64,000 nt of DNA from Chlamydoabsidia padenii. Lineage: Eukaryota > Mucoromycota > Mucoromycetes > Mucorales > Cunninghamellaceae. Shown piece after piece: positions 438 through 62,915 of this stretch. The stretch lies in the NCBI GenBank assembly GCA_025330725.1, contig JAIWND010000037.1:124001-188000 (forward strand). The letters are read 5' to 3'. The position numbers and the translations under genes were made by a program. The notes beneath the pieces are model-generated. The model did no database searches and was not told the origin of the DNA. It saw only the letters and a program-made list of their open reading frames with translations. Position 1 is the stretch's first letter. Each line of letters opens with the position of its first letter.

Positions 438-450
438 TTTTCAAATCCCG
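438..450. promoter_or_regulatory. TTTTCAAATCCCG promoter word upstream of the Mpv17-family gene
   Basis: One copy of the dispersed word (GCGGGATTTGAAA in reverse), 75 bp upstream of the ATG at 526. It recurs at a similar distance ahead of many genes here. The function is inferred from position. Confidence 0.55.
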
Positions 451-525
451 CTCACAGGAACAACTTCAAAAGATTCCCCATGCTCTCCTCCTTTCTCTTT
501 TTCTTATCATTTTACCTCCCTTATC

Positions 526-1295
526 ATGTCCTTGCAACTACTCATTCAAAAATACCAGGGCCAGTTAACTGAAAGACCTATTCGAACATTTGCTATCCAG
601 TCAGGTAAATAGTATACAGCTTTAAATAAAAGACTTAATGGACGAATCTGTTTATGTATACTCACTCCACCATCTAAAGGACTTATGCAATTAATAGGTG
701 ACGGTATAACACAACAAGTGATTGAAAAACGAGGCAAAGATCATGATCCTTGGAGATCGATACGAATGTTGACTTATGGTGCTTGTGTGGGTGGACCAGT
801 GGTAGGCACTTGGTTTGGTATCATTAATCGAGTGGTGACAATCAAGCATTGGTTTGGTGCGGCAGTGGCAAGAACAGCCATGGATCAAATCTTATTCACA
901 CCTATTATTCTTGGTTGTTTTATGGGTGGTATCTCTTTACTAGAAAGACGTTCCATGGTAGAAATTAGGGAAAAGTTTGAAACGGTAAATCACTTTGTCT
1001 TGTCTCTCTCTCTCTCTCTATATATATATATGGTTCATATTAACAATACTAACATCTTCTTAAATTGTAGAGCTATCTAACTGGATTGACAAATGCATAC
1101 CGATTTTGGCCTTTTGCAAATCTATTTGTATTCAGTGTGGTGCCGTTTATGTATAGACCTTTGGTGAACTCTACTTTTGCTATTGGATGGAACTCTTACC
1201 TCTCCTACTTGAATCAAAAGACAAATCAACAATTGCCTTTGATTACTCATCATCATCCTCCATTGGTTAAAACCAGATCCATCTCTGAACAATGA
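526..1295 (+). CDS. Mpv17/PMP22/Sym1-family membrane protein
   Basis: Three exons, 526-604, 680-984 and 1071-1295, give 202 aa. Family landmarks in order: an N-terminal LIQKYQGQLTERPIRT segment, GDGITQQ after the first helix, W-R-S-I-R, a GPVVGTWFG stretch where the family has GP..H.WY, MDQILFTP in the middle, and the C-terminal RFWPFANLFVFSVVP ending WNSYLSYLN. Four hydrophobic helices are apparent. Relatives are small integral proteins of the inner mitochondrial membrane (Sym1/Mpv17) or peroxisomal membrane (PMP22) and may form channels. Which organelle applies is not clear from sequence. The usual His in the GP..HxWY motif reads Gly-Thr-Trp here. Intron 2 ends in a (TC)n(TA)n tract. The start was chosen as the first ATG after the promoter word and T-rich leader. 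Confidence 0.9.
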
Positions 1296-2121
1296 CTACA
1301 CACTACTACTTTATAGACTCTTAGAATAAAAATAAATATATCCCCTTTTACTTATACACACACACACATCTTGTTTTAATAAATTTATATATAATAAACT
1401 ATGATGACTTTAATAGTCTTTTTTATCTGTCTTTGAGAGTGTGTGGAGGAAGATCGACAGATCTGCGGGGTTTCAATTTATAATTGGAATCAGGGTTCAC
1501 TAATCAGATATCAGGGAAACAAAGGGTAATCAATCATCGAACCCCACTTTGATTATAAAGTGGAGAAAACAGGGTCAGTATATGTCGCATCATTTTCATA
1601 GTCATATACATCTAGTTTACATAAACAAGTTCTTTATTACATGAATATCTATTCTAAGGGTACTAGTGTAGGGTAACTAATTTAATTCGAGTCGATTGCT
1701 ATTGTATCCTGAGTCAAGCCAAGCCAATATATAGATCGTGAGTGTTACTATTATAAAAACGAGTTGTCAGTCCCCATTCAAAGCATTAATACCAAATCCC
1801 CGACCCCTCTTGATCCCAATCTGTATCCTTCGTGTTAGTGGTGCGTCAACACATGACAAGTTCTTTTTGCTGTCCAAATAGGCCTATATCTGTTGTTGTT
1901 GGGGAGAGAGAGAGAGAGAGTAAAAAAGTCAGTTGGTTAAGTAAAAATACGACTTCTCTTGGTACTTTTTCTTTATACACATTTATCCCATCATTTCCAC
2001 TTTTACCTTCCCAACTAAACCAATCCCAACCCATTTTACCCCTGATAACATTACCCATAATCAACCATATATACTGTTCAATATGTTTTATTTGACAAGA
2101 CAAAAACCCCCATCAGAGTAT
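1296..2121. other. Intergenic region, no gene seen
   Basis: This is the shared 3' side of the convergent Mpv17-family and peroxiredoxin genes. It has AATAAA-like signals near 1325, a short hairpin CCACTTT-gattat-AAAGTGG near 1541-1562, a (GA)n tract near 1903-1920, and a variant of the promoter word (GCGGGGTTTCAAT) near 1467. Short open frames on both strands show no domain or coding character. Confidence 0.6.
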
Positions 2122-2125
2122 CTAT

Positions 2126-2668
2126 CTACAAGTGCTTTTCGACATTTTCCACCAAGCTGACATCCAACCCAGTTCGATCAGGCTCCACAAACAATTGCTT
2201 GACCACGCCGTTTTCCAAGATGGCCGCAAATCGTTGGAACCGATGATTGCCAAGGGCACCCGAAGCATCAAAAGCCAAATCCATCGCACGTGCCAATTCA
2301 CCTTTGGAATCCGCCAAGAGAGTAATCTGTTTAGGGTCGTTTTGTACTTGTTCACCCCAAGCGGTCATCACAAAGGCATCATTGACAGAGACACAGGCAA
2401 TACGATCCACACCTTGAGTTTGCTGAAGTCGTTCGGCCGCCTTGATATAACCAGGAAGATGAGTTTTGGAGCAACCGGGAGTGAATGCGCCAGGGACACC
2501 AAAGAGAATCGCCTTTTTGCTGCTGCCAAACAGGTCGCGCACATTCACAGTTTCGCCAGGAGAAGAGAGTTGGACTTGGACCGATGGAAGTGTGTCACCT
2601 ACTTTGATGTTTCGTCGTGCAGTAGCATGGAAGGAGCGACGAGCGATTCTTAGTGTGGTGTTCATCAT
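2126..2668 (-). CDS. Mitochondrial-type atypical 2-Cys peroxiredoxin (Prx5/AhpE-like)
   Basis: Single exon, 180 aa. The first 20 residues (RIARRSFHATARRN) form an Arg/Ser-rich amphipathic presequence typical of matrix import. The redoxin domain follows: KVGDTLPSV start, then PGAFTPGCSKTHLPGY with peroxidatic Cys66, then the VSVNDAFVM segment with a second Cys near 92, and a C-terminal FVEPDRTGLDVS. The PRX5 family reduces H2O2, alkyl hydroperoxides and peroxynitrite using thioredoxin or glutathione. The size matches the family and no residues look missing. It shares a 606-bp divergent promoter with the O-fucosyltransferase-like gene and has the promoter word at 2750-2762. Two Met codons are adjacent at the start, and either could be used. 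Confidence 0.95.
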   Translation of the reverse strand: MMNTTLRIARRSFHATARRNIKVGDTLPSVQVQLSSPGETVNVRDLFGSSKKAILFGVPGAFTPGCSKTHLPGYIKAAERLQQTQGVDRIACVSVNDAFVMTAWGEQVQNDPKQITLLADSKGELARAMDLAFDASGALGNHRFQRFAAILENGVVKQLFVEPDRTGLDVSLVENVEKHL

Positions 2669-2749
2669 GATGTGTGAATTATAGTTGGAGAAAAAAAAAA
2701 AAAGAAGGGTGAGGTGGCACTTTTACGATCTTTTTTTATTTCCCATGGG

Positions 2750-3274: not shown

Positions 3275-4889
3275 ATGTCTTTTAGATCTGGAAGACCTAC
3301 AAAACGATATGTCATCATCTTGGGTGTTATTCTCGTCATTTTCTATATATCATCTTTACAAGTAAAACCACACAACAATACGATGGCAGTCTCTTCGATG
3401 ACGGATGACGATACTGAAACGGTAGCGTTTGATTATATTCGGCCTTTGGATCATGGTCAAGATCGTGTAGACGCCCAACTGGAAATCACCTTGCAGTCTC
3501 CTATCACCACTGACAAGTCACTCTCATCGCCACCACAACAGCAACCACCTTTCGACTCTTCTGATTATACAACCAACATTAAGCGCATCAATCTAAAATA
3601 CTGTGGTGCCGACCAGTGTCGATTCATGTTACCAATTGCCATCACTGAACAAGGTAAGCTATTCCACTTTACACTACCTCTCATCTAATCTTCTTATTGA
3701 TCATTGAAAAACCCCTCTAGAATCCAAGGCACAATATCACTTCCGTCAACTAGCATTCCTCTCAGGCAAACTTAATCGTACAATCGTCCTACCCAATGTC
3801 CATAGTTCCCATCTTGGTGCCTGCCGACAACACCCCTTTGATTTTTACTATGACCACACATGGATGGATGCCAATCGTGGACACTTTAACTATATCACCA
3901 TGGAGCAATTCAAGGACTGGATTCAGGAACGACGGGCGGTGGCTTCGGTACCTAGTGGACAAGAAATCTTTATCGAAATTGACGAAACCTTTCCTCACCT
4001 AACCAAGGCCAACAATTGCTTCAAGGATCTATTTGACTTTACACATCGACCACGTACACGATTCCAACTAGACGATCCCGAACTAGAAACTCGACGAACT
4101 GGGAACTATACACAAATCTTACTTGATGTCTTGGGTGATGGGGCTCGAGCTAAAGAATACAAGGATCAACTGCTAGCCAATCATGGACTGGACAATGACA
4201 TGGAATCAACAGCAACAGCAACAATAGTACCTGATTTGGAAGTCATTCATCTCTTTTACGATCGTCGATTCGGATACATTGAAGACCCCGAGGTGGAAAC
4301 TCCTTTGGCTTATCATTCACGGTGGACTGCACTTGCCGATCGTATTGCTGCCCAATTATACCCTTTTGTTGCGATTCATTGGCGGATGGAACGACTGGGA
4401 CCTTTATCCAACCTACAACCTTGTGCGGAAGCTCTGGTACGTAAATTGGACACCACTTCTCGATCAGCCAATGTGTTTCTATTGACAGACTATCCACATC
4501 TCTTGACGTCGCCACTTGCCAAACCGGAATCCATGTCATTCAAACTGAACGAACTGAAACAGGAACATCATGATGCGATCCGGTACTTGTACAACCATAC
4601 CAAGGTGACATTGACAACACTCCAACGACAAGATATTCCGTACCAAGATTTACCCGACCAATGGCAGTTGATTCCGGTGGAAGCCATGTCGAAACCAGCG
4701 GACAAGAGTATCTTGGGGATTGTCGATAAACTGGTGGCGATGCGGGCTCAATGGTTTTTGTATGGTCAGCCTGCCGTCTGTGGTAAGGAATCAAGCTTCA
4801 CTCGACGCATTCGTGATGAAAGGTTTAACGCTTATCGATCCGGTGACTCCAATATCTTATCTCCTGCCGATGTGTTTGGTCTATCTTGA
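3275..4889 (+). CDS. O-fucosyltransferase-like Golgi glycosyltransferase (type II membrane protein)
   Basis: Two exons, 3275-3653 and 3721-4889, give 515 aa. Residues about 11-28 (YVIILGVILVIFYISSL) form a single signal anchor with a short basic cytosolic tail, so the catalytic part should be lumenal. A Ser/Gln/Pro-rich stem follows. The catalytic region has the LNRTIVLPNVHSSHLGAC segment near residue 140, which resembles the donor-site loop of O-FucT proteins, and FVAIHWRMERLG, matching the H-x-R-x-E/D motif of protein O-fucosyltransferases. FLLTDYPHL lies further on. Family members transfer fucose from GDP-fucose to Ser/Thr; substrate specificity is not readable here. A broken partial copy lies at 8632-8815. 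The promoter is T- and C-rich with a TATA-like run near 3230-3250. Confidence 0.8.
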
Positions 4890-6821: not shown

Positions 6822-7315
6822 TTCATTTTCACATCTGCCAACAAAGGGAATCACAACCACTGGACAGCACTTTTCACAAACTGCCTACGAAGGGAATTTA
6901 AACCACTGGACAGGTCTTTTCACATCTGCCTCGGAGGGAATGCTAACCACTGGACAGCACTTTTCACAAACTGCCTACGAAGGGAATGCTAACCACTGGA
7001 CAGGTCTTTTCACATCTGCCTACGGAGGGTATGTCAACCACTGGACAGCAATTTTCACATCTGCCTACGAAGGGAATTTAAACCACTGGACAGGTCTTTT
7101 CACATCTGCCTCGAAGGGTATGCTAACCACTGGACAGCACTTTTCACAAACTGCCTACGAAGGGAATGCTAACCACTGGACAGGTCTTTTCACAAACTGC
7201 CAACAAAGGGAATGCTAACCACTGGACAGGTCTTTTCACATCTGCCTACGGAGGGAATGCTAACCACTGGACAGCAATTTTTCGCAAACTGCCACGAAGG
7301 GAATTAAAACCACAG
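6822..7315. repeat. Minisatellite, about 10 copies of a 44-46 bp unit
   Basis: Unit starts (CCACTGGACAG) fall at 6857, 6903, 6947, 6993, 7038, 7083, 7127, 7173, 7219 and 7264, with decayed half-units on both sides. Two unit types tend to alternate. Type A reads CAGCACTTTTCACAAACTGCC and type B reads CAGGTCTTTTCACATCTGCC. Both continue TACGAAGGGAAT(GCT/TTA)AA, so expansion was probably by dimers. Unit lengths of 44, 45 and 46 shift the reading frame between copies, which argues against a repeat protein despite two open frames of about 90 codons. Confidence 0.95.
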
Positions 7316-11676: not shown

Positions 11677-12415
11677 ATGCCTGGCTTTGATGGCACGGAA
11701 CCAATATACAACTGGTTTTGCGACAATATTGGGCCCTGGGAACCACAAGACGGCAAGTCGAACAACAAACAATCTCTCTGCTAGCAGCACTCTTATAGTT
11801 AGTTCCATATTGAATGCATCGGTGGTGCAATGCCGTCTATACAACAACTTGACTCGTGAAAACAAAAAGAAGGTAATACAAACTGGGCACTCACACTTAT
11901 TAACTTATGTTACTAATGATCTTTTATATATGTATATATTATAGCTGTATGAAAAGATTGCTCTTGGTTTGCAAAAGAATTACGATTGTATCGTGTACAC
12001 AGATGGATCTTGTCGTCGTGGTGTGGCAGGTTATGGAGCGTGGTGGGGCTATGATCAAGGTCACTCGGGTCCATACCTTATGAACAATCATCATTCCGTG
12101 CGGAACTCTATGCAAGTCATTCATTTTAACAATCTCTTTATTGACACACTAGACTAGACTATTTATTTATGTATGTTAGGGTGTATACCAATCACATTAA
12201 TCCTACTCTTCATCCACTTTATGTAGAATGCAACCAACACGACTTTTTTTTTTTAGGCTTCGGGTTTACGACGGGATTCGGATGGATTTACAATTTGACG
12301 ACACTCTCTGATCATCATTACATGTGGCGGTTGGAACCACGTTTTTGTCTCTGCTCATGACAAAAATGACACCGAGGTGAATCCCTTCTTGGATCTGGGG
12401 AAAACGTCAAGCTTC
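11677..12415 (+). pseudogene. RNase H-like gene, apparently inactivated
   Basis: The first exon-like block runs from the ATG at 11677 to a GTAATA donor near 11873 but needs frame changes. The second starts at 11945 after TATTATAG and reads DCIVYTDGSCRRGVAGYGAWWG, with the first RNase H catalytic Asp in the YTDGSC context and the G-Y-G turn. About 20 codons later a one-base frame change is needed to read FRAELYA, which carries the second catalytic residue (RAEL). A third patch near 12336-12410 resembles the C-terminal W-x-H-V-x-x-x-A-H segment. Intact RNase H1 would carry all of these in one frame, so this looks recently broken. A sequencing error could mimic one shift but not all of them. Confidence 0.55.
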
Positions 12416-19764: not shown

Positions 19765-20701
19765 ATGGCATCGACACAACAGCAACAACATGTTAAATCT
19801 ATGGTCAACACTGCAGTTAATTCCTCACGGGCCCCTTCACCAGAACAAGCACAAAACAGGTAAAAAGTCAAGATCTAGTTGGTCAGACGAAACGAATGTT
19901 GATGGCGACTATGAATACTAATGTTAACATTCTCTCATGTTATGTAAGTGTGGTTATCAAAACAGGAATTGTAGGTGATGCTCAAATTGGAAAGACAAGT
20001 TTAATGGTAAAATACGCAGAAGGTGACTTTGACGATGAATATATTCAAACATTGGGTAAGTTATGTGATGATGATAATGGTATATGTATGACTTTTTCCA
20101 ATGGTTTAATATGATAGGTGTCAATTTTATGGACAAGACAATCTTGATACGGAATACGGAAATCACATTCAGTATATGGGATCTTGGTGGTAAAAGAAAC
20201 AGAAACAGCACTATACTAAACAAATTTACTGACTATCTTTGATTATACTAGGTCAAAAGGAATTCATCAGCATGTTACCACTTGTATGCAACGATGCCAT
20301 TGCTATTCTCTTCACATTTGATCTAACTAGGAAGGCCACATTAAACAGCATTAAGGAGTGGTATCGACAAGGGCGGGGTTTGAACAAGGTAAAAAGAAGA
20401 CTGAAATAACATGATGGATGACTTACTCTTTGAGTAAATCTAGAATGCTATTCCTCTGCTAATAGGCACCAAGTATGATGAATTCACTCAAATGTCAAGT
20501 CAGGATCACGAAGAAATCACCATTCAAGCACGAAAATACGCCCAAGCCATGAAGGCCCCCTTGGTCTTTTGCTCCACTGCACACTCTATCAACATTCAAA
20601 AGATCTACAAAATTATCCTTGCCAAGGCCTTTGATTTAAACTGCACCATCCCGGAAATTACAGAAATTGGTGGTCCCATTTTAGAATATACACATTGTTA
20701 G
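19765..20701 (+). CDS. spg1: Spg1/Tem1-type septation GTPase
   Basis: Five exons, 19765-19859, 19949-20055, 20118-20189, 20252-20388 and 20444-20701, give 222 aa. After a Gln-rich N-terminus of about 30 residues comes a Ras-like domain: P-loop GDAQIGKTS, switch I region [14 protein letters not shown], switch II WDLGGQKEF (Gly-Gly-Gln), GTKYD for guanine specificity, and CSTAHSIN as the G5-like loop. The TLGVNF and [15 protein letters not shown] segments are diagnostic of the Spg1/Tem1 family, which sits on spindle poles and triggers the septation-initiation/mitotic-exit cascade. Exon 2 starts after ATGTAAG; this acceptor gives the only in-phase join. The gene is convergent with the expansin-like gene, 150 bp apart. 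Confidence 0.95.
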
Positions 20702-38198: not shown

Positions 38199-39179
38199 TG
38201 ATGTTGTTTTAAAAATTAAAAATAAAGTGAGAATGAGGAAAAGGTTGAAAAAGAAAAAAGGAAGTCGGACTTTTATCCGTTTTTTTTTTTTTTTATGCTT
38301 CATTTTTTCCCATCCCCCAACAAACTTTCCTTTTTCAAACAGTGATAGATGTTTCAATACAATCACTTTAATGCATTTCCCTTTGTTACTTTTTTTTTTT
38401 TTTTTCATCTCAAGATGTTTGATTATGCTGTATCAATCATCAGTTGTTAGGTATCTATCGAGTTGACTGAACAAACAAAAAAAGAGACATAATGGGTATC
38501 ATCGTTGTGGAGCGAATATCGTGTGAATCTTCTTTTTGTATTTGCGTTTGATCCCGCTCCCCCCCCCCTCCCCCATTTGAAACAAGCTCTCGACTTGAAT
38601 ACACATGATGCTTTATTTTAAGGTGCACATAAAAAAAAAGTCGGTCGTTGTTTCCCCCCTGTTCCCTTTTTGATTTTCAAACCCCGCTGCATGATTGGAA
38701 TAAAGATCGCATGACATTATCTTCCTTTCAGATCTTTTTTTTTTTTTTTTTTTTGATGAACGATACTTCCTTAAAATTCCATGTTGTATTGTTATCTATT
38801 TACAGTTTTTATTCACGTGCTCTTATTTTCCCATCGCTTGTTTGTTTTATAAATGTACATATCGGTAGGGGGCCACATTCAATAAAGTAAGCTTGATTGG
38901 ATTTTCATAGTCTGGATCTTATCAGTACATTTATCGATCTGGATGTTGCTGTTTATACCGGTGTAAAAAAGAGCATATATGGAAGAGGCGTTATGATTAC
39001 TACAAACAAATCAAGTACATGTTATGGCACAGCCAAGTGTCGCGGCAAGCGGGATTTGAAGATGTATACCTTCGAAAATGTCTATGAACCATATTCGCTA
39101 CCTCGTCTGCGAACCATATATATCAACTCGTCCATGAACCCTACTCATTAACTCGTTCTGGACTGTATTTGCTACCCCA
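38199..39179. other. Intergenic, promoter side of glycogen phosphorylase
   Basis: T tracts at 38281-38294 and 38735-38754, a promoter-word variant TTTTCAAACCCCG at 38674-38686 and CGGGATTTGAA at 39050-39060. No supported gene. Confidence 0.5.
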
Positions 39180-40130
39180 TTGAAAATAGTATAAATAGCC
39201 CATCTTTCCTTTATCCCCAGAAAGTTTTTCAGCTTTATAATCAATAAAAAGTTTCTCGTAAAAAAAAACTTATCAAGAGACCTCTCTCTATTACTATCTA
39301 CTTTGAATTTTTTTGATCTACTTTGATACAAAATTTACTTTTATTGGCTTTACTATTGCCATCCGTCTTATTTACAGTTACCTTACAAGCATGACTGTAG
39401 TCTCCATTGATCTTACTTCAGGTACAAGATCCATTTCTATTCATTTTCAAATCCCGCTTTCCAAATGGGATCTCTTTTTATTTTCTCTTTGAACAAAAAC
39501 ATTCAAAATGTTGAATCTACATCAAAATGATTCTGATGCTCACTAATTTGATACATGCAAACTATTGCTGGGAATGAGGTCCTAGACCTCCAACAATTTT
39601 TGAACTGGTCGCCTTCAGAAATACTTTTTAATCGGCGCACCAAAATTCAACCCTCGCCAAATTCTATCTTATGGCTACCTTAGCCAAAATCTATCTTTTG
39701 GTCATCGCCAATAACTAGTTTTTGATTATTATTTACATACAATATCTATCTAATGGCTACCATAGCCAATATTTATCTTTTGGTCACCCTTACCCCTGAA
39801 TTCACAAATAGTATAAATATCACATCAATTCAAATTGAATTCATTTCTTTTTTTATTCAGTTTTCATAAGTTTCTCTTTTAATAAAAAACTTTAATACAA
39901 ATCAAAAGGTCTTTTTTACAAGCTGCCTCTCTTATTATCAAGTTACTTAACAAATGTAACTTCTGCCTATATTGCTCTTACTTTGGATCAAGAGCCTATT
40001 TTTATTTTATTTTCAAATCCCGGCTTGCCTCGGTCGATCTTTTTCTTTTCCACTTAAATTACCAAATACATTCAAGTACATCTTGAAGGTTGAATCTTAC
40101 CACAAAGATTCTGGTGCTCACTGCTCTTAT
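39180..40130. repeat. Two diverged copies of a promoter-containing unit, possibly mobile-element derived
   Basis: Copy 1 (about 39180-39550) and copy 2 (about 39802-40130) run in the same orientation and share, in order, AATAGTATAAATA, TTTCTC and AATAAAAA, a CTCTC-TATTA block, TTTTCAAATCCCG (39444 and 40010), CATTCAA, TTGAATCT, and GATTCTG(A/G)TGCTCACT. Each has a TATA and AATAAA-like words, as solo LTRs or small transcription units do. Neither encodes a convincing protein. Terminal TG...CA and target duplications were not seen, so the element class is open. Confidence 0.5.
39663..39795. repeat. Short tandem duplication between the two units
   Basis: Two blocks about 80 bp apart share TCTTATGGCTACC-TTAGCC and ATCTATCTTTTGGTCA (with A/T changes): 39663-39712 and 39744-39793. 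They sit between the two larger copies. Confidence 0.6.
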
Positions 40131-40322
40131 ATAAAACAAAACCTACTTCTACTACCCAAGTTACCTACACTTTACCAAGTTTAGCCGCAACACTATATTT
40201 TTGAACCAAAGATACTCTAACATCCACCAGATTTAGCCGTATCACACATAACAGTAAAGTTGGTTAAGCAAACGGAGTAAAACAAAATATTCAAACTCCG
40301 TTATCGGGAGGGTCAAAAAAGT

Positions 40323-40393
40323 AGCTTGTGGAAGTTTCGATCCTCCGACCTATGGGTTATGGGCCCATCGCTCTTCCCCTGAGCTAACAAGCT
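40323..40393 (-). tRNA. tRNA-Met (anticodon CAT)
   Basis: The cloverleaf reads on the minus strand over 71 nt. Acceptor stem AGCTTGT pairs with ACAAGCT. D arm is GCTC-AGGGGAA-GAGC. Anticodon stem ATGGG/CCCAT encloses loop CCCATAA, with anticodon CAT. T arm is GGAGG-ATCGAAA-CTTCC. It has no intron and no encoded CCA. A CAT anticodon could in principle be a modified Ile tRNA, but eukaryotic nuclear genes with CAT are Met. Whether it is the elongator or initiator form was not settled; the ordinary T loop favours elongator. Confidence 0.92.
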
Positions 40394-42127
40394 GTCAATT
40401 GAAATAAAAATCTTAATGTGTTATATAAATCACAACGTCGGAGTTTTAATATATAAGTAGGAAATAAATGTATTGACAAGTACAAAAGGAACTACAAAAA
40501 AAATAGTCAAAGCTACAAACTATTAAATTTATATATTTTGGGTGATATGGTTTGTATGAGTACACTTTACTTGCCCTAGTATGTGTAAAAGACAAGAAAA
40601 AAAGGGTCGGTCATTTTCAAATCCCGACAACGGGGCGTGTTCTAGATATTTTTTAAAAGGAGATAATAACTGCCTAAAAGTAGGTCAGAGTGAGTTTTAT
40701 TTCATTTAGTGTTAAGTCCATTGAAGATGGTTAGATACATACCGAATCACAATTCAGCAGCTATTTGGATAAAAGATAAAGATAGAGTATAAGAGGGATA
40801 ACAATGATATAGTTAAATGAGAGAAGTAAAAAAAGAAAAATAAAAGTAGAGGAGAAGCGGGGTTAACTAGTAAACGAAATGTTTTAATTTTTTAAACTAA
40901 TCTACCAAATCCAGTCAGCCAATCAGGGCGAAAGCAAAATGTTTCTGTCTCTTCTCAGTTCCATCTCTCTTTTTCTCTTTTTCTCTTTTTTTTTTTTTTT
41001 ACCGACCAGCATCGATAACGAAAACATCATGTATTAGTTAATCGTGAAGGTAATCTAATCTTATACGAATCATATACAACACAAAGACAACGACTCTATT
41101 CATACAACGACCCTATTTACTGTATTCCAATAACATTTTAGATCACGATCCTTTTTATGAATACACCTACGGACCTACCTCAATGAATACCATCTTTGTA
41201 TCTATCTATATGGACAGAGCAGCTATATCCTTTTGGTATCTTTTGTTGTATATCTCCACTTCCCTAATATTGTAGTTGATTCACCCTTTACATAGTCTCC
41301 TAATTACTTTTTTACTTTCATAATTCCCCTCCACACTAGGTTAGATCCTTTATTAGTCTTATAGTATTGTATTACTGGATTGTATTGTGTTATTAATAAC
41401 GATAATAATAAACTATTGAATGTAATGGTGGCAACAATGATCTTGATTGCGTTCTGAATAGTGATTAGTCGAATGGTAGATAATACACTTGGCATCGTCT
41501 TTTTTTTTTTGTAGGATTTGGGTTGTCAAAATACATAGTTTAGATGGAAAGTATACTTTCATCGTAGAGTATAACCATGATAATCCACTATTTACTATAA
41601 ATACATTACTCTTTCAAAAAATTGGCATTATAGATTACATACTGTATCATGATGGCTACTGTAATACAAACACCCACTTAACAATATTTGACAACCTTTT
41701 TCTCTATCCTTCTTTTTCTTCACAAACGAAAACAATAAAACTAGAAACGTTATGAATATCACGATCGTTTTTTTTTTTCGAACTTGGTGACGCTCTTCTT
41801 TAACAGAAAAGAGCATCGTACATGCGTTGTGAATGTATTGCCTATTTTGGTAAAAACCCGACACTGCGGTAACCAACCAACCAATCTAGATCATCATCAC
41901 CCACCACCACCATTCCCATTTACAACCATTCCATGTTAAACCAATTAGATTAAATAGTCATTTTATTGATAATGATAAAGGGGGAAATACATACAGATAA
42001 AAGGGGGGATGTTTGGTAAAGTTAAAAGAGCTGTACAAAGGGGAGTGTGTGTGTGCGTGTTTTTCAAAAAAAAAAAAGTATCATCCTATATTAATAATAA
42101 TAATAAAAAGAAGAGTAATATACTAAT
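40394..42127. other. Gene-poor stretch between tRNA-Met and histone H3
   Basis: TTTTCAAATCCCG at 40614-40626 followed by ACAACGGGG (a CCCG-ACAA-CGGG hairpin). The rest is AT-rich with (ATA)n-like runs. The 3' flank of H3 has AATAATAATAATAAA near 42092. No gene is supported. Confidence 0.55.
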
Positions 42128-42556
<429 letters not shown>

Positions 42557-42617
42557 TTAAAAAGAAGAAAAGGAGGGAAAAGGAAAAGAAGAAAAAAAAA
42601 AAAAATGAAAGCAACAT

Positions 42618-42643
42618 TTATATGGAATTTCAAAATCCGATCC
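42618..42643 (-). promoter_or_regulatory. Histone H3 core promoter: TATA plus variant promoter word
   Basis: On the minus strand TATAAA is immediately preceded by a degenerate form of the word (plus strand AATTTCAAAATCCGATCCC), about 80-105 bp from the H3 ATG. Confidence 0.5.
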
Positions 42644-42896
42644 CCTACGCGTTGCTAAGGAAAAAAAAAAAGAAGGTAAGAATGGAAATATTGGCGTCAC
42701 GGTCGCGCAGACGATCGCGATTCACATTCCTTGCATTCTTTTCATCATTGGGATATCAATCAAAGCCCTGATTGATTGATGCAGTAATAAAATGTAATAT
42801 TATGCTTACTCTGGTCCATAGATACACTGCGTGTCTTTCATCACTGATGGCTTTTTTTTCTTTTTCTCTGATGATTGCCTATCGACACGCTTAGGG

Positions 42897-42939
42897 CGGG
42901 ATTTGAATCGGTATTTTCCTTTCCCGCAGCTCTATAAAA
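42897..42939 (+). promoter_or_regulatory. Histone H4 core promoter: promoter word plus TATA
   Basis: CGGGATTTGAA at 42897-42907 and TATAAAA at 42933-42939, 26 bp apart; the ATG is at 43042. Confidence 0.65.
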
Positions 42940-43041
42940 TTCATTGGGGCCCACCTCATTTTAATTTTTTTCTTCTTTTCCCTTTTTTCTTCATCCTCTT
43001 TTTTTTTTTTTCTCTCTCTCTCTCTCAATAAATATTATACA

Positions 43042-43443
<402 letters not shown>

Positions 43444-44003
43444 ATAAACTCTACCCCCTCTTTTTACATCTTTTACACCATAAACTAGTTTTGTTACTCT
43501 TTTTTTTTTTACCCTCATCTTCACACACACACACACACACACACCTTCTGTATATAAAATGGATTCTCTTTCTGTCTTCAACTATCTGATAATAAAAAAA
43601 AAACAATGTCTTCCACAGTACCAATGTGTCTTTTTAATGTATAATGCAGGTAGTGATGACCCATGATGTTGACTAGATTCACTTTTTGATTAAAGACCAA
43701 TACACATCACCTGGACCCGACATATGACCTTCATATAAACAACCCTTTTTTACCAATAAAAGAATTACCCGATCCCGCAGGCATAAATGGATATACAATC
43801 CAATCCAATAGTCCACATATACACAATAAAAGATGATGAAGGTTAAAATGTTTATTATGTATTATTTTCCCTTTTCATGATCAAAAGCTATGTACATATT
43901 TAAAAAAAAAATGTTTGGGAGGGGGATACTAATGGGAGGGGATGTGTTAAACTAGGGAGGGGGCGATAATAGTAAAAAAGATATATATATATATAGGTTT
44001 TGT

Positions 44004-44396
44004 TTAAAGTTCTTGGGAAGCACCACCCTTCTTCTTGGTAGGCAAGAGGTTGGCGTGGATGTTAGGAAGAACACCACCTTGAGCAATAGTGACATGACCC
44101 AAAAGCTTGTTGAGTTCTTCATCGTTACGGATGGCCAATTGCAAATGACGAGGAATGATACGAGACTTTTTATTGTCGCGAGCAGCGTTACCAGCCAATT
44201 CGAGGATTTCAGCAGTCAAGTATTCGAGGACAGCAGCCAAGTAGACGGGAGCACCACCACCGATACGACCAGCAAAGTTACCATTACGCAAATGACGATG
44301 GATACGACCGACAGGGAATTGTAAACCGGCCTTGGAAGAACGAGTTTGAGACTTGGAGCCAGATGCAGATTTACCACCAGATTTACCACCAGACAT
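44004..44396 (-). CDS. Histone H2A (H2A.X-like C-terminus)
   Basis: Single exon, 130 aa. It has [16 protein letters not shown], the acidic-patch residues in [17 protein letters not shown] and [17 protein letters not shown]. It ends GGASQEL, the SQE-phi motif phosphorylated by ATM/ATR-type kinases at DNA breaks. As in yeasts, the bulk H2A therefore also serves as gamma-H2AX substrate. It is divergently paired with H2B. The promoter word TTTGAAATCCCG (44521-44532) and TATATAAAAAG (minus strand near 44482-44492) lie upstream. Confidence 0.99.
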
Positions 44397-44520
44397 GTTG
44401 ATTATATGTTATAATGAATTAAAGAAGATGAAAGAGTTGCAGAATTGGAAAAAAAAAAAAGTCTCATCTCCCCAGCTTGGCTTTTTATATATTGCGGAGT
44501 GACGGCTTGAAAATCTTTGA

Positions 44521-44532
44521 TTTGAAATCCCG
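44521..44532. promoter_or_regulatory. TTTGAAATCCCG promoter word of histone H2A
   Basis: About 30 bp upstream of the H2A TATA and 125 bp from its ATG. Confidence 0.6.
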
Positions 44533-44740
44533 ATCCGCTGACGCGCGAGTCTCCTTGTTTTTTTTTTTTTCTTTTGGATACAATGACAACTACACACCAC
44601 TACTTTTGAAAACCAAAAACTAAGGCCTTATTTTTTGTAAAAAATGACAAATGTATTTAAAAACGTGTATCAACGTGGTAAAACGTGTTACTTTCGTGGT
44701 TTGCCAAAGTAAAAGAGGTCGAAAACAACGGATGAAGTAT

Positions 44741-44771
44741 CGGGATTTAAATCCATTGTCACCTGCGCGAT

Positions 44772-44815
<44 letters not shown>

Positions 44816-44833
44816 CTAGACTCCATATAAAAA
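44741..44833 (+). promoter_or_regulatory. Histone H2B promoter: promoter word, 43-nt T tract, TATA
   Basis: CGGGATTTAAA at 44741-44751, an uninterrupted T run at 44773-44815, and TATAAAAA at 44826-44833; the ATG is at 44894. Long T tracts disfavour nucleosomes, so this may keep the promoter open. Confidence 0.65.
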
Positions 44834-44893
44834 TTCCTTCTCCCTTTTTCATTTTTTTTTTCTTCTTCTCTTAATACAACATTATATACAACA

Positions 44894-45253
44894 ATGGCTC
44901 CCGCTGGTAAAGCTCCTGCAAAGACTGTCGAAAAGAAGACCAAGGCTGATGGCAAGAAGAGAAAGGCGTCTCGCAAGGAATCTTATGCCTCTTACATTTA
45001 CAAGGTCTTGAAGCAAGTCCATCCTGATACTGGTATCTCCAACAAGGCCATGTCCATCTTGAACTCCTTTGTCAATGATATCTTTGAACGTATTGCCACC
45101 GAAGCTTCCAAGTTGGCTGCCTACAACAAGCGCTCCACCATCTCTTCTCGTGAAATCCAAACCTCTGTCCGTCTCATCCTTCCTGGTGAATTGGCCAAGC
45201 ATGCTGTGTCTGAAGGTACCAAGGCTGTCACCAAGTACACCTCTTCCAAATAA
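44894..45253 (+). CDS. Histone H2B
   Basis: Single exon, 119 aa. The Lys-rich tail ([20 protein letters not shown]) is followed by the fold: [60 protein letters not shown] and AVTKYTSSK with the ubiquitinatable Lys. With H3, H4 and H2A it completes one full core-histone quartet within 3.2 kb. Confidence 0.99.
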
Positions 45254-48022: not shown

Positions 48023-50072
48023 ATGGACGATACCAATAAAAAAGGTTTGGAAAAACAGCCTGATCCACACCATAGCAAGATAAAACAACATCTCATTGAA
48101 TGGAAACAATCCATTGTACGAAAACCTGATCAACCTGTGAATATCTGGCACCTCTTGACGAATCTCACCAATACACAAAGGGTCACGTTTGCTGCTGGTA
48201 AATGAAAAAAAAAAAAAAAAAGTAATCTACCTAACAAAAATAGGACTCATGTTGTATTGTAGCTTTTTTCGGATGGATGCTTGATGCGTTCGACTTTTTC
48301 TCTGTAGGACTCACCACCACTTATATTGGTAAGTTATGAAAAAAAAAAAAAAAGATTGTCATTCTGTAACTGACAATGGTCTTCTCTTTTATAGCTCGGG
48401 ATTTTGGCGTGCCTGTTTCTGAAGTGACTAGTAAGTATCCATTTCATCTTGTCTATCTTTATTTAAACTCTTTTAATTATATAGGTGCCATTACAACTAC
48501 TTTGGTAAGTAAACCAAAAAAAAGGGGGGGGGACAAAAAAACAAAAAACTAAATTGATCTGTTTTAGATGTTAAGGCCCATTGGTGCTCTTGTCTTTGGT
48601 GCCCTGGCTGATCGATATGGACGACGATGGCCATTGATGGTGGATGTGATCTTATTCTCAGTGATCAATATGGCCAGTGGGTTTGCTCCCAACCTTCAAA
48701 CCTTTATTGGACTCCGTGCAGTTTTTGGTATATGTATGGTAAGAAAAAAAAAAAAAACCTTCTTTGATCGATCTTAAAAAAGGGTCATATTAATCCATTT
48801 TTTTATTATAGGGCGGTGAATGGGTAATAAGCGGGATTTGAAATATCATTGTCATGCTGATCTCCTTCTCTCTCTCTCTTTTAAATCATAGGGACTTGGT
48901 GCCTCACTTGCTCTCGAAACCCTTCCGATCGAAGCACGTGGTCTATTCTCTGGTATCTTTCAACAGGGGTATGCATGCGGTTACTTACTGGCGACACTGA
49001 CCAGCTATGTGATAATAAGCCAAGGGGGGTCATGGCGTATCCTCTTCTGGGTAGGAGCGGCATTTGCTCTTCTGGCAGTGGTGATCCGATTCTGGGTACC
49101 TGAGTCCGAAACGTTCGAACAAACTCAAAAAGCCCGCCAGATGCTGAACCGATCAGTATGGAAGGAAGCCGGTCTCGCGGTGCAAAAACATTGGGCTCGC
49201 TTGGTGTACATGGTGATTTTTGCTGCCTTTTTCAACTTTTTCTCCCATGGCTCACAAGATTTGTATCCGACCTTCTTGACCACTCAACTCCATTACAGCG
49301 AAGCAGACAAAACCGTGACCAGTGTGATCTATAATATTGGTGCCATCGTCGGGGGGACTCTCTTTGGTTACTTGTCCAATTATCTGGGTCGTCGGTTTGT
49401 GGTGGTGTTGTGTGCCATTGGTGCTGGTGCGTTTATTCCCTTGTGGGCATTTGGGCCTTCGATGGCTTCGTTACAGTTTGGGTCCTTTATGATGCAATTC
49501 TTTGTCCAGGGCGGATGGGGGGTGGTCCCGGCTTATTTGAATGAAATCTCTCCACCAGGATTCCGAAGTCTTATGCCTGGTTTAGCTTATCAATTGGGTA
49601 ACCTGGTATAGTAACAAGGAAGAAGAAGGGAAGGAGGGCGGGGGACGATATACTTATGAACTCTCTTTTTAGATCAGTGCTGCCAGTTCCCAAATTGAAG
49701 CAACCATCGGTGAACAATACCCTCTTAGAGAAGCCGATGGTACTATGCGCTTGGATCCATTAACTCATCAACCCATTGCCAATTATGCCCTGACTCAAGC
49801 TATCTTCATGGGTTGTGTTTGTGGTGGACTCTTGGTGACAGGTATTAAAGAAAGTGATCCATTTGACTTGTTTGATCAACTTTTTTTTTTTTTTTTTGTT
49901 GTTAATTATAGTCTTCTTTGGAAAAGAAGAAACGAACAAGGACTTTATGCAAAACTTGGTGGAAGATGAAGACTCAATCAATAGTGTCGGTGTGGTCGAT
50001 ATTCAAGAAATTCAGTTGGAACATGGCGAACTTGGGAAAAAAGCAAATAGTGTCACTAATCCTTCGCTTTAG
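48023..50072 (+). CDS. JEN1: JEN1-type monocarboxylate/proton symporter (MFS, SHS family)
   Basis: Nine exons: 48023-48197, 48263-48328, 48395-48430, 48485-48504, 48568-48738, 48812-48823, 48892-49605, 49673-49841 and 49912-50072, giving 507 aa. A cytosolic N-terminus leads into MFS helices starting AFFGWMLDAFDFFSVGL. The A-motif is GALADRYGRRWPL. The JEN signature N-x2-S-H-x2-S-Q-D-x3-T appears intact as NFFSHGSQDLYPT at about 275-287, a motif required for lactate/pyruvate transport in yeast Jen1. PAYLNEISPPGFR and a hydrophilic C-terminus follow. Exons 4 (20 nt) and 6 (12 nt, Gly-Gly-Glu-Trp) are micro-exons. Intron 6 carries GCGGGATTTGAAA at 48831-48843. Uptake of lactate, pyruvate or succinate at the plasma membrane is expected. 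Confidence 0.95.
48831..48843. promoter_or_regulatory. GCGGGATTTGAAA inside intron 6 of the JEN1-type gene
   Basis: An exact copy of the dispersed word within a 68-nt intron, away from any start codon. It could be a regulatory site within the gene or show that the word spreads or acts independently of promoters. Confidence 0.5.
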
Positions 50073-53692: not shown

Positions 53693-54320
53693 TCAATAAA
53701 AGTTGGCCCATCGATCCGCATCATAGTTTTCCATCAAATCCTTTTCATCCTTGTATCGTGCATGCCAGCCTTCAAACCCACCACGGATCACGTATACCTA
53801 TTGTATAGAAGAAAGAGTCAAGTTCCAAAGTCTATCAATCCTCAGATTCCACCTCCCCCTTTTTTTTTTATACCTGTTGATCCTTTGATGAGAGACTGGG
53901 TTGAAGGTGTCGTATTTCGTTGTATATCCTAGCTGATTTGGGCCCTATAATATAACAAGGTCAGTAGTTTGTCATGATTATCCTTGTCGTTTTGATTACC
54001 TCTGACTTGAGAGAGAGCACAGTGGAAGTAGATGACAGGTACGTTGGAGTATGTCTGAGCAAGATCCGAAGCTGCATCGACTAGTTGATTGGCAGGGACA
54101 TTCAAAGCACCTGGGATATTGCCTCCCTTTTTTTTTTTTAAAAAAAAATAAGGATGTGAGTAAAGTGGAGTGTAGGTAGTTTTTTTTTTTATATATCACT
54201 TACCACGAAATCGTCATCTCTTACATCTATAATAAGGTAATCTTTCCCTACTTGTTTGGAAGGATCTCGTATGAGCTGGACGACTTGATCACCATCTACC
54301 AAAGGAGCCACAAATGACAT
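53693..54320 (-). CDS. Cdc25-like/Acr2-type rhodanese phosphatase
   Basis: Four exons on the minus strand, 54204-54320, 54000-54126, 53874-53944 and 53693-53797, give 139 aa. It is a single rhodanese domain: LIIDVRDDDFVGGNIPGALNV, VIYFHCALSQVRGPKSARIY with the catalytic C-x5-R loop (CALSQVR), and VIRGGFEGWHARY. The HCxxSQxRGP form is that of small Cdc25-like phosphatases/arsenate reductases such as fission-yeast Ibp1 and plant Acr2, not of thiosulfate sulfurtransferases. Length is typical. Whether it acts on phosphotyrosine or arsenate cannot be read from sequence. Confidence 0.92.
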
Positions 54321-55506: not shown

Positions 55507-57492
55507 ATGACCTCACTTTTGAATTACCCATTTGAACTTGTGGCACCAATGGCTGCTATTGTGTCCATCTTGCTCTTACCTCTTGGACCACTATTAATAC
55601 CTCGTTTTTACCTCATCTTCTTACTCATTTACTTTACTTGCTTCCTCTATACACAAATCAACCATGTCTTCAAATTCTGGCTTACTGTCTCCAACATCAA
55701 GAAAACCATTCGACGATGGAATCAACTCAACAACAACAACAACAACAACAACAATACCACTATGACGAACATGAATGATAACGAAAAGGAAGGAACCTCC
55801 GCCTCATCTGCACCAGCTTCACCTACACCAACACCTACTCGGGAACGTTATCCTATCATGGACGATGATCGTTTGAACGAAATGGAAACCAACTTGAAAC
55901 TCTACGACGATAATCACTTTGTCCATGCCTTTATCGTGCCGAACTATGCGGAGCCTGAAGCTTTGTTAAGGGATACCATCAAACGACTAGCAAATCACAG
56001 GTAACAAAAGAGAACTCCTATTTGTGTGGGGAGTGAAGAAGGGGGTGCTATGATATCACATATACTAACTATATATAAAAAAACTGCTATTATAGAAATG
56101 CCCAATCGAATTATGTGATCATTCTTGCTATGGAAGGCTCTGAAACTGGATATGAACCTAAAGCGGATAATTTGACCAACTACTTTAAGGATAGCTTCCT
56201 TCACTTTATTGTTACTGTCCATCCTCCCGACATCCCTGGTGAATCTCGTGGTAAAGGCTCCAATGTGGCATGGGCGGCTCGTCATGGTTGTGCGGAAATG
56301 ATTCAACGTGGTGTGGATCGTCGTCGGGTTATCTTGACTGTCTCTGATTCTGATTCCTCAATCCCTGAACTCTATGTAAAAGAAGTAAGTAAACTTGTCA
56401 AGGAAAAAAAGAAAAGAAAAAAAAAGAAAAGATCAATTATACTCACATCTCTCTCTTTCTTTATAGGTTGAAAAGACATTCACTCAAGCCGAAGATCCTT
56501 ACTTTTTATTGTTTGCACCACCCATCTTCTTCTCTCGAAATGCCTTTGATGTGCCCGCAGCGGTACGAATGACTGATATCACCTGGTCGGCCATGGTGAT
56601 GTCCAATCTCAGCAACAGTCGTGGTATCGCCTTCCCTTGCTCAACTTATTCACTCTCGATGATTCTGGCGGAACGTGTGGGCTACTGGGATACTGATGCT
56701 GATTCGGTGGGTGAAGATATGCATATGATGCTAAAGTGCTTCTTCAAGACGGACGGTTTAGCTCGTTGTGCTCCCATCTTTGTCCCTATCAACTTGACAA
56801 ATGTCCAAACCAATGGCTACCTCTCCAACATGCATGCTCGTTACGTTCAAGCCAAGCGTCATTATAACGGTGTGGCCGATGTCTCTTATACTCTGCGTAG
56901 TGCGGCAGGATTGGTGGATCTTGCCGATGGTCAAAAGAACAAGTACATGATGGGTCTCCTTAACACCAACAGTAACAAAAAATCGTCCATGTACGCCTCT
57001 CCTACCTTTTGGTTCGACAAACTCTTGGTGTGTGCCAAGGTGCTTGAAGCTCATATGATTCCTGTCACTTCGGGTTGGTTGATGTTTGCTGCTGTGCCTC
57101 TCATGCAATTCATCCTCTTTCCTCCTCATTCTATGGTGGACTTTGTGGATCCTGCCGACAATCCCATCCTCACCTCGGACTTTTATGCAACCTTGTGGAA
57201 TATCGTCAAGATCATCACTGTGTTTTTACCTCTGCCTTTGTTTGGTACCTTGTCCATCTACGAACACCTTCATCGTGTGGTCGATCGTGAATTGTATCGT
57301 AAATCACCATTGGAATCAAGGACGTGGAGGAATGTGTTTGATTATATCACTTTGCCTATCGCCGCTTGGTTGTTTATGACCATCCCTTCCACTATCGCCT
57401 GCATCAAACGACTCTACAAACCCACCGACCAATACATTGTTGCCGAAAAATTCTTTGATGAAGACTCTGATGGGGATAGTCATTCTCTCTAG
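55507..57492 (+). CDS. GT2-family membrane glycosyltransferase
   Basis: Three exons, 55507-56000, 56096-56384 and 56467-57492, give 602 aa. Two N-terminal helices (LVAPMAAIVSILLLPLGPLL and FLLIYFTCFLYTQ) precede an Asn-repeat linker and the catalytic core: FVHAFIVPNYAEPEALLRDT (nucleotide-sugar binding start), GKGSNVAWAARHG, ILTVSDSDSSIP (DxD-like) and DTDADSVGEDMHMMLK (the ED catalytic-base motif). Two or three C-terminal helices follow (VTSGWLMFAAVPLMQFILF, IVKIITVFLPLPLFGT and ITLPIAAWLFMTIPSTI). The chitin-synthase QxxRW motif is not apparent, so it belongs with the broader GT2 group, not with canonical chitin synthases. The polysaccharide or glycolipid made is unknown. Confidence 0.87.
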
Positions 57493-59639: not shown

Positions 59640-61069
<1,430 letters not shown>

Positions 61070-61234
61070 ATTTCTCCTTCCTTCTACATCATTATCATCT
61101 CTCTTTTATTGTTATAGTATATAGTTTCCCTCGCATCATTCTTTTAAAAAACCCCATTCATATACTCTTTTATAGATCTTCTTTTTTTGTATAATAAAGC
61201 ATGTTGAAGCTTGATCAATTACAACAGGGTCCAG

Positions 61235-61247
61235 GCGGAATTTGAAA
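61235..61247. promoter_or_regulatory. GCGGAATTTGAAA promoter word upstream of the LisH-WD40 gene
   Basis: 70 bp before the ATG at 61317; one base differs from the consensus. Confidence 0.5.
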
Positions 61248-61316
61248 TAATAATATATATGTTGGGTGTTGGCTTTTTTCTTCTTTTTTTTTTTTTTTGC
61301 TTCTTGCTCCTGTTTC

Positions 61317-62582
61317 ATGACACAACCATCCATTGCTGACGCCCATTCTCAAGTGGCACGCTTCCTCGAACATCATGGCTATACATCAACACTAGAAATG
61401 TTTCGCCGTGAAGCTGGTAGTCTAATTCCTGACAATTCTGATACTTTGGCTGCTCATCTTGGTAATCTACAACTAGACAGGTAAAAATAAAAATAAAAAA
61501 AATAAAAAGATAAAGCAGCCCCACTCTCACTCACTCTTTCTTCTCCTAGTCCACAAAGTAAACTTGAAGGAGGTGACTTTGACTTTTACACAACTTTGAT
61601 CGATCGCCATTCTGATCTCCACCAAACAAACATTCTTGCCGTCAGTCGACACCACGATCTTGTAGCCACCAGTGGCACGGACAAGACAGTGAAACTCCAT
61701 CAAATAACAACACAACCACCAACCCTCGTACACACCTTCCGACATCATCAAGCACCTGTACTCAGTATTGATTTCCACCCATTGTATCCTCATCTCCTGC
61801 TCACGACATCCATGGACGGAACGACGGTGTTGGTGGATACAACAGCAACAACAACCGATAATGTGATACAACGCTTCAAGGATCATCAACGCTATGTCGT
61901 CCGTGGTCTCTTCTCACCTCATACTGGCCGATACTTTGCCACTACCTCCTACGATCAGACTCTATGCATCTATGAAAACCATGGAGATGATATCCAATAC
62001 GAACTAGTGGCGAAACGTGGTCCTTTTGTTGGCAAAGTGGAAACCGTCTGTTTCCACCCTGACGGCAATTCATTGATTGTAGGGGTTCAAAACGACAATT
62101 ATCTCCACCAGATCCCACTCGGTAATAATAACAGTCAAGATAAAAAGATCAATTTGAATGCGAATGGTGATGACTGGGTATCCTTTAGTCCTACTTGGCT
62201 CTCCTTCCACCCGAGTTACCCTTCCTTGTTGATGGTGTCAACCGATCATGCCAGTGGTCGACTCATCTTGCTCGATGTGGAGAATGGTCATCAAGTGCAG
62301 AACTACCATATTGCCCCGGCTAGCGATACGGATTATACCACGCGGCGGCATGTCTTTCATCCGTCTGGGCGATACTTTTATGTTATTGGGGGTGATGCAC
62401 ATCATACTGTCAAGGTGGTGGAAACCAAAACGGGTCATTTGGAAGCTACTTTGGATGGCGGGCATAGTGCAATGATTCGTGCTATCACTATAGGGGATGG
62501 GGCTCTCTTGACAGTTGGATTTGATCATACCATGGCTATTTGGTCGGTGGCCTCTGCAAAAGATGATGATCTGATACGGTAG
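61317..62582 (+). CDS. LisH-WD40 repeat protein
   Basis: Two exons, 61317-61480 and 61550-62582, give 398 aa. A LisH motif at about 8-38 (AHSQVARFLEHHGYTSTLEM) suggests dimerisation. At least six WD-type blades follow: NILAVSRHHDLVATSGTDKT, PVLSIDFHPLYPHLLLTTSM, VVRGLFSPHTGRYFATTSYD, VETVCFHPDGNSLIVGV, PTWLSFHPSYPSLLMV, HVFHPSGRYFYVIGG and IRAITIGDGALLTVGFDHTM. The best-known proteins with this layout are scaffold subunits in ubiquitin-ligase or dynein pathways, but I cannot name an orthologue. The function is open. Confidence 0.85.
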
Positions 62583-62915
62583 ATACGTACTTGGTTTATA
62601 GTCGATCAATCTTTTTATTTTATTTTTATATATATCTTTTTATATTAATAAATAAATAAACTTGATAATGGGCTATTGTTATTAATGGGGTGTATTATGA
62701 ATGTTGCATGATGGATTGTTCCTGATCACACATTCGGGGGTTAAAACATTACAGCATGTGCAAAAGGGGCAGGGGTCCATTCTTTTACTTCATTGATTGT
62801 GTAACATTATCTACTCACAAATCGGTATTTGAAAATATCAACGGCGGGTTTTCCATTGTTCCAGTTTTTTTTTTTGCTTTTCTTTCTCTTCTCCCTTTTT
62901 CTGTTTTATAGACCA
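62583..62915. other. Intergenic, promoter of the peroxin gene
   Basis: AATAAATAAATAAA near 62648, a promoter-word-like GGCGGGTTTTCC near 62842 with TTTGAAA just upstream, and an acceptor-like TTTTATAG at 62904-62911 that may end a 5' UTR intron. Confidence 0.5.

Follow-up and report, generated by a model that had tools for sequence, protein, structure and literature searches.

A short, strand-neutral word before most sampled genes of Chlamydoabsidia padenii is the predicted binding site of an abundant promoter protein

Most of the genes modelled in sampled sequence of the mucoralean fungus Chlamydoabsidia padenii (Cunninghamellaceae; assembly GCA_025330725.1) are preceded, within 400 bp of the start codon, by a short word, KCGGGRTTTNAAW, in which CGG is followed at a fixed distance by TTTNAA. 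The word had been noticed in a 64-kb stretch of contig JAIWND010000037.1 (positions 124,001 to 188,000, referred to here as the window). We put at roughly two in three the probability that one abundant protein binds this sequence specifically and so marks most promoters, and the best reading of its role is one like that of Reb1, Abf1 and Rap1 in yeast, with a different sequence. A protein marking promoters generally is favoured because the word is double-stranded, strand-neutral and rigidly spaced and stands before most genes. The original prediction, a general promoter element bound by an abundant factor, is thus supported by positional enrichment, by the unrelated genes that follow the word and by its strand symmetry, the factor itself being a prediction.

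The genome comprises 34.23 Mb in 95 contigs. The main sample of 264 kb consisted of the window and five 40-kb pieces of other contigs; a further 50 kb, used for training neither the weight matrix nor the gene finder, was held out, giving 314 kb in all. Genes were modelled with a small, purpose-written hidden Markov model (HMM), which gave 137 genes with a median intron of 69 bp in the 264 kb. Setting aside 46 that were shorter than 150 codons or had no start left 91 well-modelled genes, and all positions were measured from modelled start codons. The spliced product of one model, 55507-57492, matches a Chlamydoabsidia padenii protein with 100% identity along 602 residues, its next relatives being from Halteromyces (88%), Absidia (86%) and Cunninghamella (83%). 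Viral contigs scanned for a relative of a window protein, as stray fungal DNA for comparison, yielded none.

All 27 positions named beforehand have a weight-matrix site of at least 10.5 bits no more than 12 bp away, and the window holds 76 such sites, with 20 exact copies of the 10-mer GGGATTTGAA on both strands. The copies are far above chance, as had been claimed, and not confined to the window: in the 264 kb, CGGGATTTGA occurs 51 times against 0.3 expected under an order-3 Markov model and is the top-ranked 10-mer once simple repeats are set aside. Across the 34.2-Mb genome, KCGGGRTTTNAAW was found 6,070 times and its reversed pattern 9 times, the two strands being equal in occurrence, if not necessarily in activity (3,046 and 3,024); TTTCAAATCCCGC was found 1,177 times (581 and 596 by strand) and its reversed pattern never. 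At 10.5 bits, the matrix recognized 319 sites in 314 kb, about one per kb; it recognized 16 when the sequence was reversed and 34 in equally long order-3 Markov sequence. After subtraction of the reversed control, this extrapolates, from under 1% of the genome, to about 33,000 sites per genome.

The matrix, trained on the 264 kb, describes an 11-letter core with flanking letters, [A/G][G/T]CGG[G>A][A>G]TTTNAA[A/T]. The CGG and TTT.AA positions are each 84-98% fixed, with less constraint on the N and on the two intervening bases: the base after CGG is G in 76%, the next is A in 58% and G in 31%, and N is A, C, G or T in 14, 15, 60 and 12 per cent, respectively. The base before CGG is G in 48% and T in 38%, and flank composition is near background outside about -2 to +13. 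The gap between CGG and TTTNAA is rigid. A gap one base shorter gave 381 matches against 202 reversed, and one base longer 542 against 15; among the matches listed, many of the longer ones are of the GATTTTAAA type with an extra T, which the normal spacing fits as well.

Could the copies simply belong to one dispersed repeat or transposable element? In favour, a 16-mer of flanking sequence recurs at another locus for 25 of the 319 sites, among them two small repeat families and several simple repeats (low-complexity words and neighbours closer than 140 bp were left out of this count). However, the other 294 share none, and mean flank identity between sites is 0.267-0.269 against a background of 0.261; a repeat origin is refuted for the bulk of the sites and its probability is negligible. 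The two small families, which carry degenerate copies of the site, lie at about 411.4-419.6 kb of contig C4, and at 322.4 and 322.7 kb of C1, 118.7 kb of C2 and L039:1401; a mobile or tandem element may have picked up the site.

The sites avoid coding sequence. Their density per kb is 0.29 in coding exons, 0.61 in introns, and 1.73, 2.97 and 3.26 in convergent, tandem and divergent intergenic regions, respectively. A site lies at -200 to -40 of the ATG in 57 of the 91 well-modelled genes, against 13.2 ± 3.3 after circular shifting (maximum 26 in 2,000 shifts), and at -400 to 0 in 75. The density peaks at 10.2/kb at 80-100 bp from the nearest ATG, is 1.0/kb in the last 40 bp before it and about 2-2.6/kb at 200-800 bp. 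The upstream enrichment, measured from modelled ATGs, was strong both in the 264 kb and in the held-out 50 kb. The latter contained 46 sites against 3 reversed, with 2 in 25.9 kb of coding sequence and 39 in 17.7 kb of intergenic sequence; once genes starting within 400 bp of the relevant piece end were excluded, 10 of 16 genes had a site at -200 to -40 and 12 of 16 at -400 to 0. The genes that follow the word are unrelated, as had been proposed, and the models include Pfam PEPCK, redoxin, ubiquitin-like, RING, PRMT and core histone domains. Either orientation occurs, 33 sites lying on the same strand as the gene and 34 on the opposite strand.

Such frequency and such sharp placement 80-100 bp before the ATG would also suit a core-promoter element that the basal machinery itself (TFIID or a TBP-like factor) recognizes and that sets the start site, as would the order of elements: within the last 250 bp, where 65 of 89 genes contributed 77 sites to the comparison, 70 of the sites stood upstream of the block richest in pyrimidines. 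Core promoter elements, however, are usually directional and single, and the present sites show no strand preference (33/34), occur two or three within 400 bp in 32 of the 91 genes, and are often distal (2-3/kb). The strand symmetry counts against such direct reading, an explanation that we regard as rather unlikely. In the 89 gene-model promoters, the coding strand is enriched in T-runs and CT-rich sequence some 25-75 bp ahead of the ATG, a zone that probably marks the start region. TATAAA showed no clear position or peak in the same promoters, and the statement that the word often stands just upstream of TATA found little support.

The word might instead serve mainly as a boundary or roadblock that separates transcription units, as an insulator or a polymerase II terminator of the Reb1 kind. 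Its freedom of orientation is consistent with this, as are the 25 sites in 20 convergent regions and the rarity of close pairs, for the sites are spaced rather than clustered. Simulations that kept the density of distances to the ATG produced more close pairs than were observed, both below 60 bp (about 45, observed 24) and at 60-160 bp (51 ± 8, observed 24); at 180-300 bp, the 63 observed pairs slightly exceeded the simulated 47.5 ± 8.1, a count that 4% of 300 runs reached. Part of the deficit amounts to "one site per promoter", as the simulation permits several sites per promoter peak. However, the peak lies before the ATG and not after the stop codon (8.75/kb in the bin 80-120 bp upstream, at most 4.0/kb in any downstream bin), and the sites are densest in divergent regions. 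A boundary as the main role is therefore unlikely, more so than a core element. Where promoter or boundary had been left as alternatives, the data support the promoter; the boundary is less supported, with a density in convergent regions that is about half, though not zero.

Several observations weigh against a general promoter factor. No site was found within 400 bp in 16 of the 91 genes, or at -200 to -40 in 34. By our own models, a hand count puts only 28 of the window's 76 sites at 50-220 bp before an ATG; the original prediction placed most copies there, which holds for a bare majority (14) of the 27 listed copies but not for the window as a whole, where the remaining copies lie at greater distances upstream, within gene models, in convergent intergenic regions or in DNA that yielded no model. 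At least one site occurs in 13 of 20 convergent regions between well-modelled genes and in 8 of 15 others, and the 400 bp that follow the stop codon contain a site in 56 of 89 genes. Codon bias, a rough proxy for expression, was not linked to the presence of a site, with values of 0.353 for the 72 genes that have one and 0.343 for the 34 that lack one (p 0.37). In addition, the gene starts come from our own HMM, whose models include at least two with an in-frame stop and one that seems to be truncated. Part of the sites after stop codons is explained by compact spacing, which puts the next promoter close. Three long convergent regions, which hold 14 of the 25 convergent sites, may hide genes, and the remaining after-stop and convergent sites may serve unannotated transcripts or boundaries.

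With a general promoter factor as the preferred reading, a promoter-opening role is proposed by analogy with the general regulatory factors of yeast. We infer that a protein binds the word, that this protein is single and that nucleosomes are cleared. The factor would bind double-stranded DNA either way round, mostly 80-150 bp ahead of the ATG, with a pyrimidine-rich tract downstream of its site; once bound, it would keep the promoter free of nucleosomes, and the cleared promoter would let RNA polymerase II start nearby. Excerpts from two studies state that sites of yeast general regulatory factors deplete nucleosomes and should act without orientation (PMC3875857), and that the repertoire of these factors changes between yeast lineages (PMC2897762). 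The present word resembles the Reb1, Abf1, Rap1, Rsc3 and Cbf1 sites of budding yeasts in being short, orientation-free, non-coding and found in promoters of unrelated genes. It differs from them in sequence and in that one word covers from 57 (-200 to -40) to 75 (-400 to 0) of the 91 genes; we know of no single yeast factor with such coverage. As separate candidates, the Reb1 word TTACCCG was not enriched in the 264 kb (6 against 18 reversed), and the MCB/SBF words ACGCGT, CACGAAA and CGCGAAA all fell below their reversed controls.

As to the binder, a CGG-reading zinc-cluster or Myb-type factor is our guess. The zinc-cluster candidacy comes from the fixed CGG, the tail-to-tail pairs and the 46 Zn_clus matches in the genome. 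Like Zn2Cys6 zinc-cluster sites, the word has a nearly invariant CGG and, among close pairs, leans towards a tail-to-tail arrangement (CGG...CCG); unlike them, it occurs predominantly as single sites and its TTTNAA half is strongly constrained. Among close pairs, 52 sites are tail-to-tail and 30 head-to-head (binomial p 0.02), and 11 of the 50 tail-to-tail pairs listed and measured (of 52) are exactly 23 bp long. This preference and the fixed length hint at protein contacts at a minority of sites. More tentatively, a single Mucorales-specific protein, with no orthologue among the yeast general regulatory factors, may define most polymerase II promoters through RKCGGGATTTNAAW, which we consider possible though doubtful; if true, this would be a nearly universal, non-directional promoter code, and we know of no such code in other fungi. 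According to excerpts of a review (PMC13297926), a 2025 study examined 58 factors of Rhizopus microsporus by DNA affinity purification sequencing, and that set may already contain the binder.

Searches of the literature on the word forms (CGGGATTT, AAATCCCG and longer forms), mucoralean promoter motifs, E2F/LIN54, E2F/SBF in fungi, general regulatory factors and zinc clusters, in which the larger result sets were covered in part, found no description of the word. Little has been described of promoter grammar in early-diverging fungi. A single word present in most of the promoters sampled offers a handle on transcription start, on the promoter-opening protein in Mucorales and on the replacement of general factors in fungal evolution, and it would be of use for annotation and promoter building in industrial Mucorales.

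Three further readings were weighed. The first is the composite of E2F/DP and LIN54 (the cell cycle-dependent element/cell cycle genes homology region, CDE/CHR, of DREAM/MuvB type), in which E2F would read GCGGGA and LIN54 TTTGAA to provide cell-cycle control. The look-alike is close, with a GC-rich half followed by TTTGAA, and the idea is tempting because the genome contains six exons matching E2F/DP domains (best E 2.4e-26); hybrid E2F-CHR motifs are reported for worm, fly, human and Tetrahymena in excerpts from PMC3093354 and PMC8216455. However, the gap from GGCGG to TTYRAA is two bases in 19 cases, three in 4 and four in none, where CDE/CHR needs four. GCG, which E2F strictly prefers according to an excerpt from PMC4862756, is not needed here, with G before CGG in 48%. 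At the fourth CHR base, where C makes LIN54 binding undetectable (excerpt from PMC4974476), C is as common as A (15% against 14%), so that the position is free and the TTYRAA consensus does not hold. Moreover, the sites precede genes of many kinds and are not restricted to cell-cycle genes. With the gap, GCG and TTYRAA rules all failing, we reject this composite as very unlikely. The E2F word TTTCCCGC occurred 8 times against 4 reversed in the 264 kb. Genome searches for LIN54-type TCR/CXC-like, LIN9-type DIRP and RB_B domains gave no match, which, as they had no working positive control, is no proof of absence. The six E2F/DP matches are in themselves consistent with a retained E2F in early-diverging fungi, possibly in duplicated sets.

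The second is an address tag for N6-adenine methylation (6mA): the site, often containing a GATT of the VATB type, would be read by P1, the Myb-like subunit of MTA1c, linking promoters to the 6mA of Mucorales. According to excerpts, Phycomyces has its 6mA clustered near starts, with a preference for VATB/ApT (PMC11258239), and the Myb-like P1, which binds DNA, is enriched at 6mA-bearing chromatin of Rhizopus (review PMC13297926). On the other hand, base 4 is not A in 42% of sites, so that ApT is not needed, and the excerpts from PMC11258239 place the 6mA clusters downstream of the start, where our sites are upstream of the ATG, and describe little symmetric 6mA in Mucor. Such a tag is still less probable than the E2F composite.

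The third is the B box of tRNA type, which would make the copies TFIIIC-only sites (like the extra TFIIIC, or ETC, sites) scattered as chromatin boundaries. The reverse strand shares a TTCAAATCC core with the B box, and TTTCAAATCCCGC read on that strand resembles the tRNA T-arm GGTTCRANTCC. Nevertheless, the GG is absent (the two bases beside TTNAAA are A in 56% and T in 36%, then A in 43% and T in 43%), the position of the invariant C takes any base, and GGTTCAAATCC, GGTTCGAATCC and GGTTCGATTCC have no copy in the 264 kb. Missing the GG and the full words, the B box is refuted by sequence, and we give it almost no weight.

Among the 76 sites of the window, those above 15 bits and the one at 28436 are given below with strand, position and score by the position weight matrix.

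440..450, minus: CGGGATTTGAA-type site, 81 bp before the ATG at 526 of an Mpv17/PMP22-like gene (Pfam), 23.0 bits
1466..1476, plus: site between convergent gene models, 17.2 bits
2752..2762, minus: site 92 bp before the ATG of a redoxin gene (minus strand, Pfam), 22.2 bits
3104..3114, minus: site 166 bp before the ATG at 3275, 17.9 bits
5838..5848, minus: site, 16.7 bits
6691..6701, minus: site 154 bp before the modelled start at 6850, 17.2 bits
7414..7424, minus: site, 21.7 bits
7969..7979, minus: site, 21.2 bits
8146..8156, minus: site, TTTCAA variant, 21.8 bits
9325..9335, plus: site, 22.2 bits
11457..11467, minus: site, TTTTAA variant, 228 bp before the ATG at 11690, 16.6 bits
12815..12825, plus: site, CGGGG variant, 16.2 bits
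13985..13995, plus: site, TTTTAA variant, 19.1 bits
14182..14192, minus: site 369 bp before the ATG at 14556, 15.2 bits
15531..15541, plus: site, TTTAAA variant, 174 bp before the ATG at 15710, 20.5 bits
15576..15586, plus: site, TTTAAA variant, 129 bp before the ATG at 15710, 16.4 bits
19065..19075, plus: site 275 bp before the ATG at 18795 of a minus-strand gene, cytochrome P450-like by eye only, 22.5 bits
19596..19606, plus: site 164 bp before the ATG at 19765, 16.9 bits
20374..20384, plus: site inside coding model 19765-20701, 20.5 bits
21452..21462, plus: site 264 bp before the ATG at 21193 (minus strand), 23.0 bits
23227..23237, minus: site, tail-to-tail with a weaker site at 23216, 17.9 bits
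23866..23876, minus: site 296 bp before the ATG at 24167, 20.6 bits
24053..24063, minus: site 109 bp before the ATG at 24167, 21.6 bits
28436..28446, minus: site 126 bp before the ATG of PEPCK (minus strand, Pfam), 14.9 bits
29036..29046, plus: site 136 bp before the ATG at 29177 of a ubiquitin-like domain gene (Pfam), 18.0 bits
29117..29127, minus: site 55 bp before the ATG at 29177, 18.6 bits
30276..30286, plus: site, 18.5 bits
30879..30889, plus: site with GCATGAA 25 bp downstream, 20.9 bits
35355..35365, minus: site 98 bp before the ATG at 35262 (minus strand), 19.1 bits
38676..38686, minus: site 483 bp before the ATG at 38198 (minus strand), 21.8 bits
39050..39060, plus: site inside a doubtful 53-codon model, 18.6 bits
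39446..39456, minus: site, 22.9 bits
40012..40022, minus: site, 21.1 bits
40616..40626, minus: site, 22.3 bits
42629..42639, minus: site 96 bp before the ATG of a core histone gene (Pfam Histone; H3 by eye; minus strand), 16.2 bits
42897..42907, plus: site 140 bp before the ATG of a histone gene (H4 by eye; 60-aa piece without Pfam match), 19.9 bits
44522..44532, minus: site 131 bp before the ATG of a histone gene (H2A by eye; 60-aa piece matching Histone below cut-off; minus strand), 19.3 bits
44741..44751, plus: site 148 bp before the ATG of a core histone gene (Pfam Histone; H2B by eye), 15.6 bits
47266..47276, minus: site 96 bp before the ATG of a RING gene (minus strand, Pfam), 22.4 bits
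47933..47943, minus: site 85 bp before the ATG at 48023, 16.5 bits
48832..48842, plus: site within gene model 48023-50072, 22.6 bits
50182..50192, minus: site with GCATGAA abutting its CGG side, 19.9 bits
50849..50859, minus: site inside a coding model, 19.8 bits
53495..53505, plus: site, 19.2 bits
54596..54606, minus: site with GCATGAA at its CGG side, 281 bp before the ATG at 54320 (minus strand), 16.4 bits
59484..59494, minus: site 151 bp before the ATG of a PRMT gene (Pfam), 15.1 bits
59551..59561, plus: site 84 bp before the ATG of the PRMT gene, 18.0 bits
61236..61246, plus: site 76 bp before the ATG at 61317, 19.8 bits
62823..62833, plus: site 88 bp before the ATG at 62916, 17.4 bits

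The core-histone cluster (41873-45253) consists of two divergent pairs, H3/H4 and H2A/H2B by eye, and every gene has its own site 96-148 bp before the ATG. Just before it, 38199-41872 makes up 3.7 kb without a gene model of at least 100 aa; eight sites, five of them above 18 bits, lie there, with a tRNA-Met gene (40321-40393) in their midst. Genes missed by the models, or non-coding transcripts, may lie in this stretch.

A second promoter word, TGCATGAA/TTCATGCA, occurs 57 times in the 314 kb against 5 times reversed, and 45 of the copies are intergenic. Thirty-five of the 57 lie within 40 bp of a CGGGATTTNAA site, where 20% would be expected at random intergenic positions. GCATGAA or TTCATGC often abuts the CGG side: by hand count, this is so for 16 of the 319 sites at an offset of -16 to -8, and 6 of these 16 are in one repeat-bearing stretch of contig C4. 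The second word looks like the site of a partner factor, and examples in the window stand next to the sites at 30879, 50182, 54596 and 59484.

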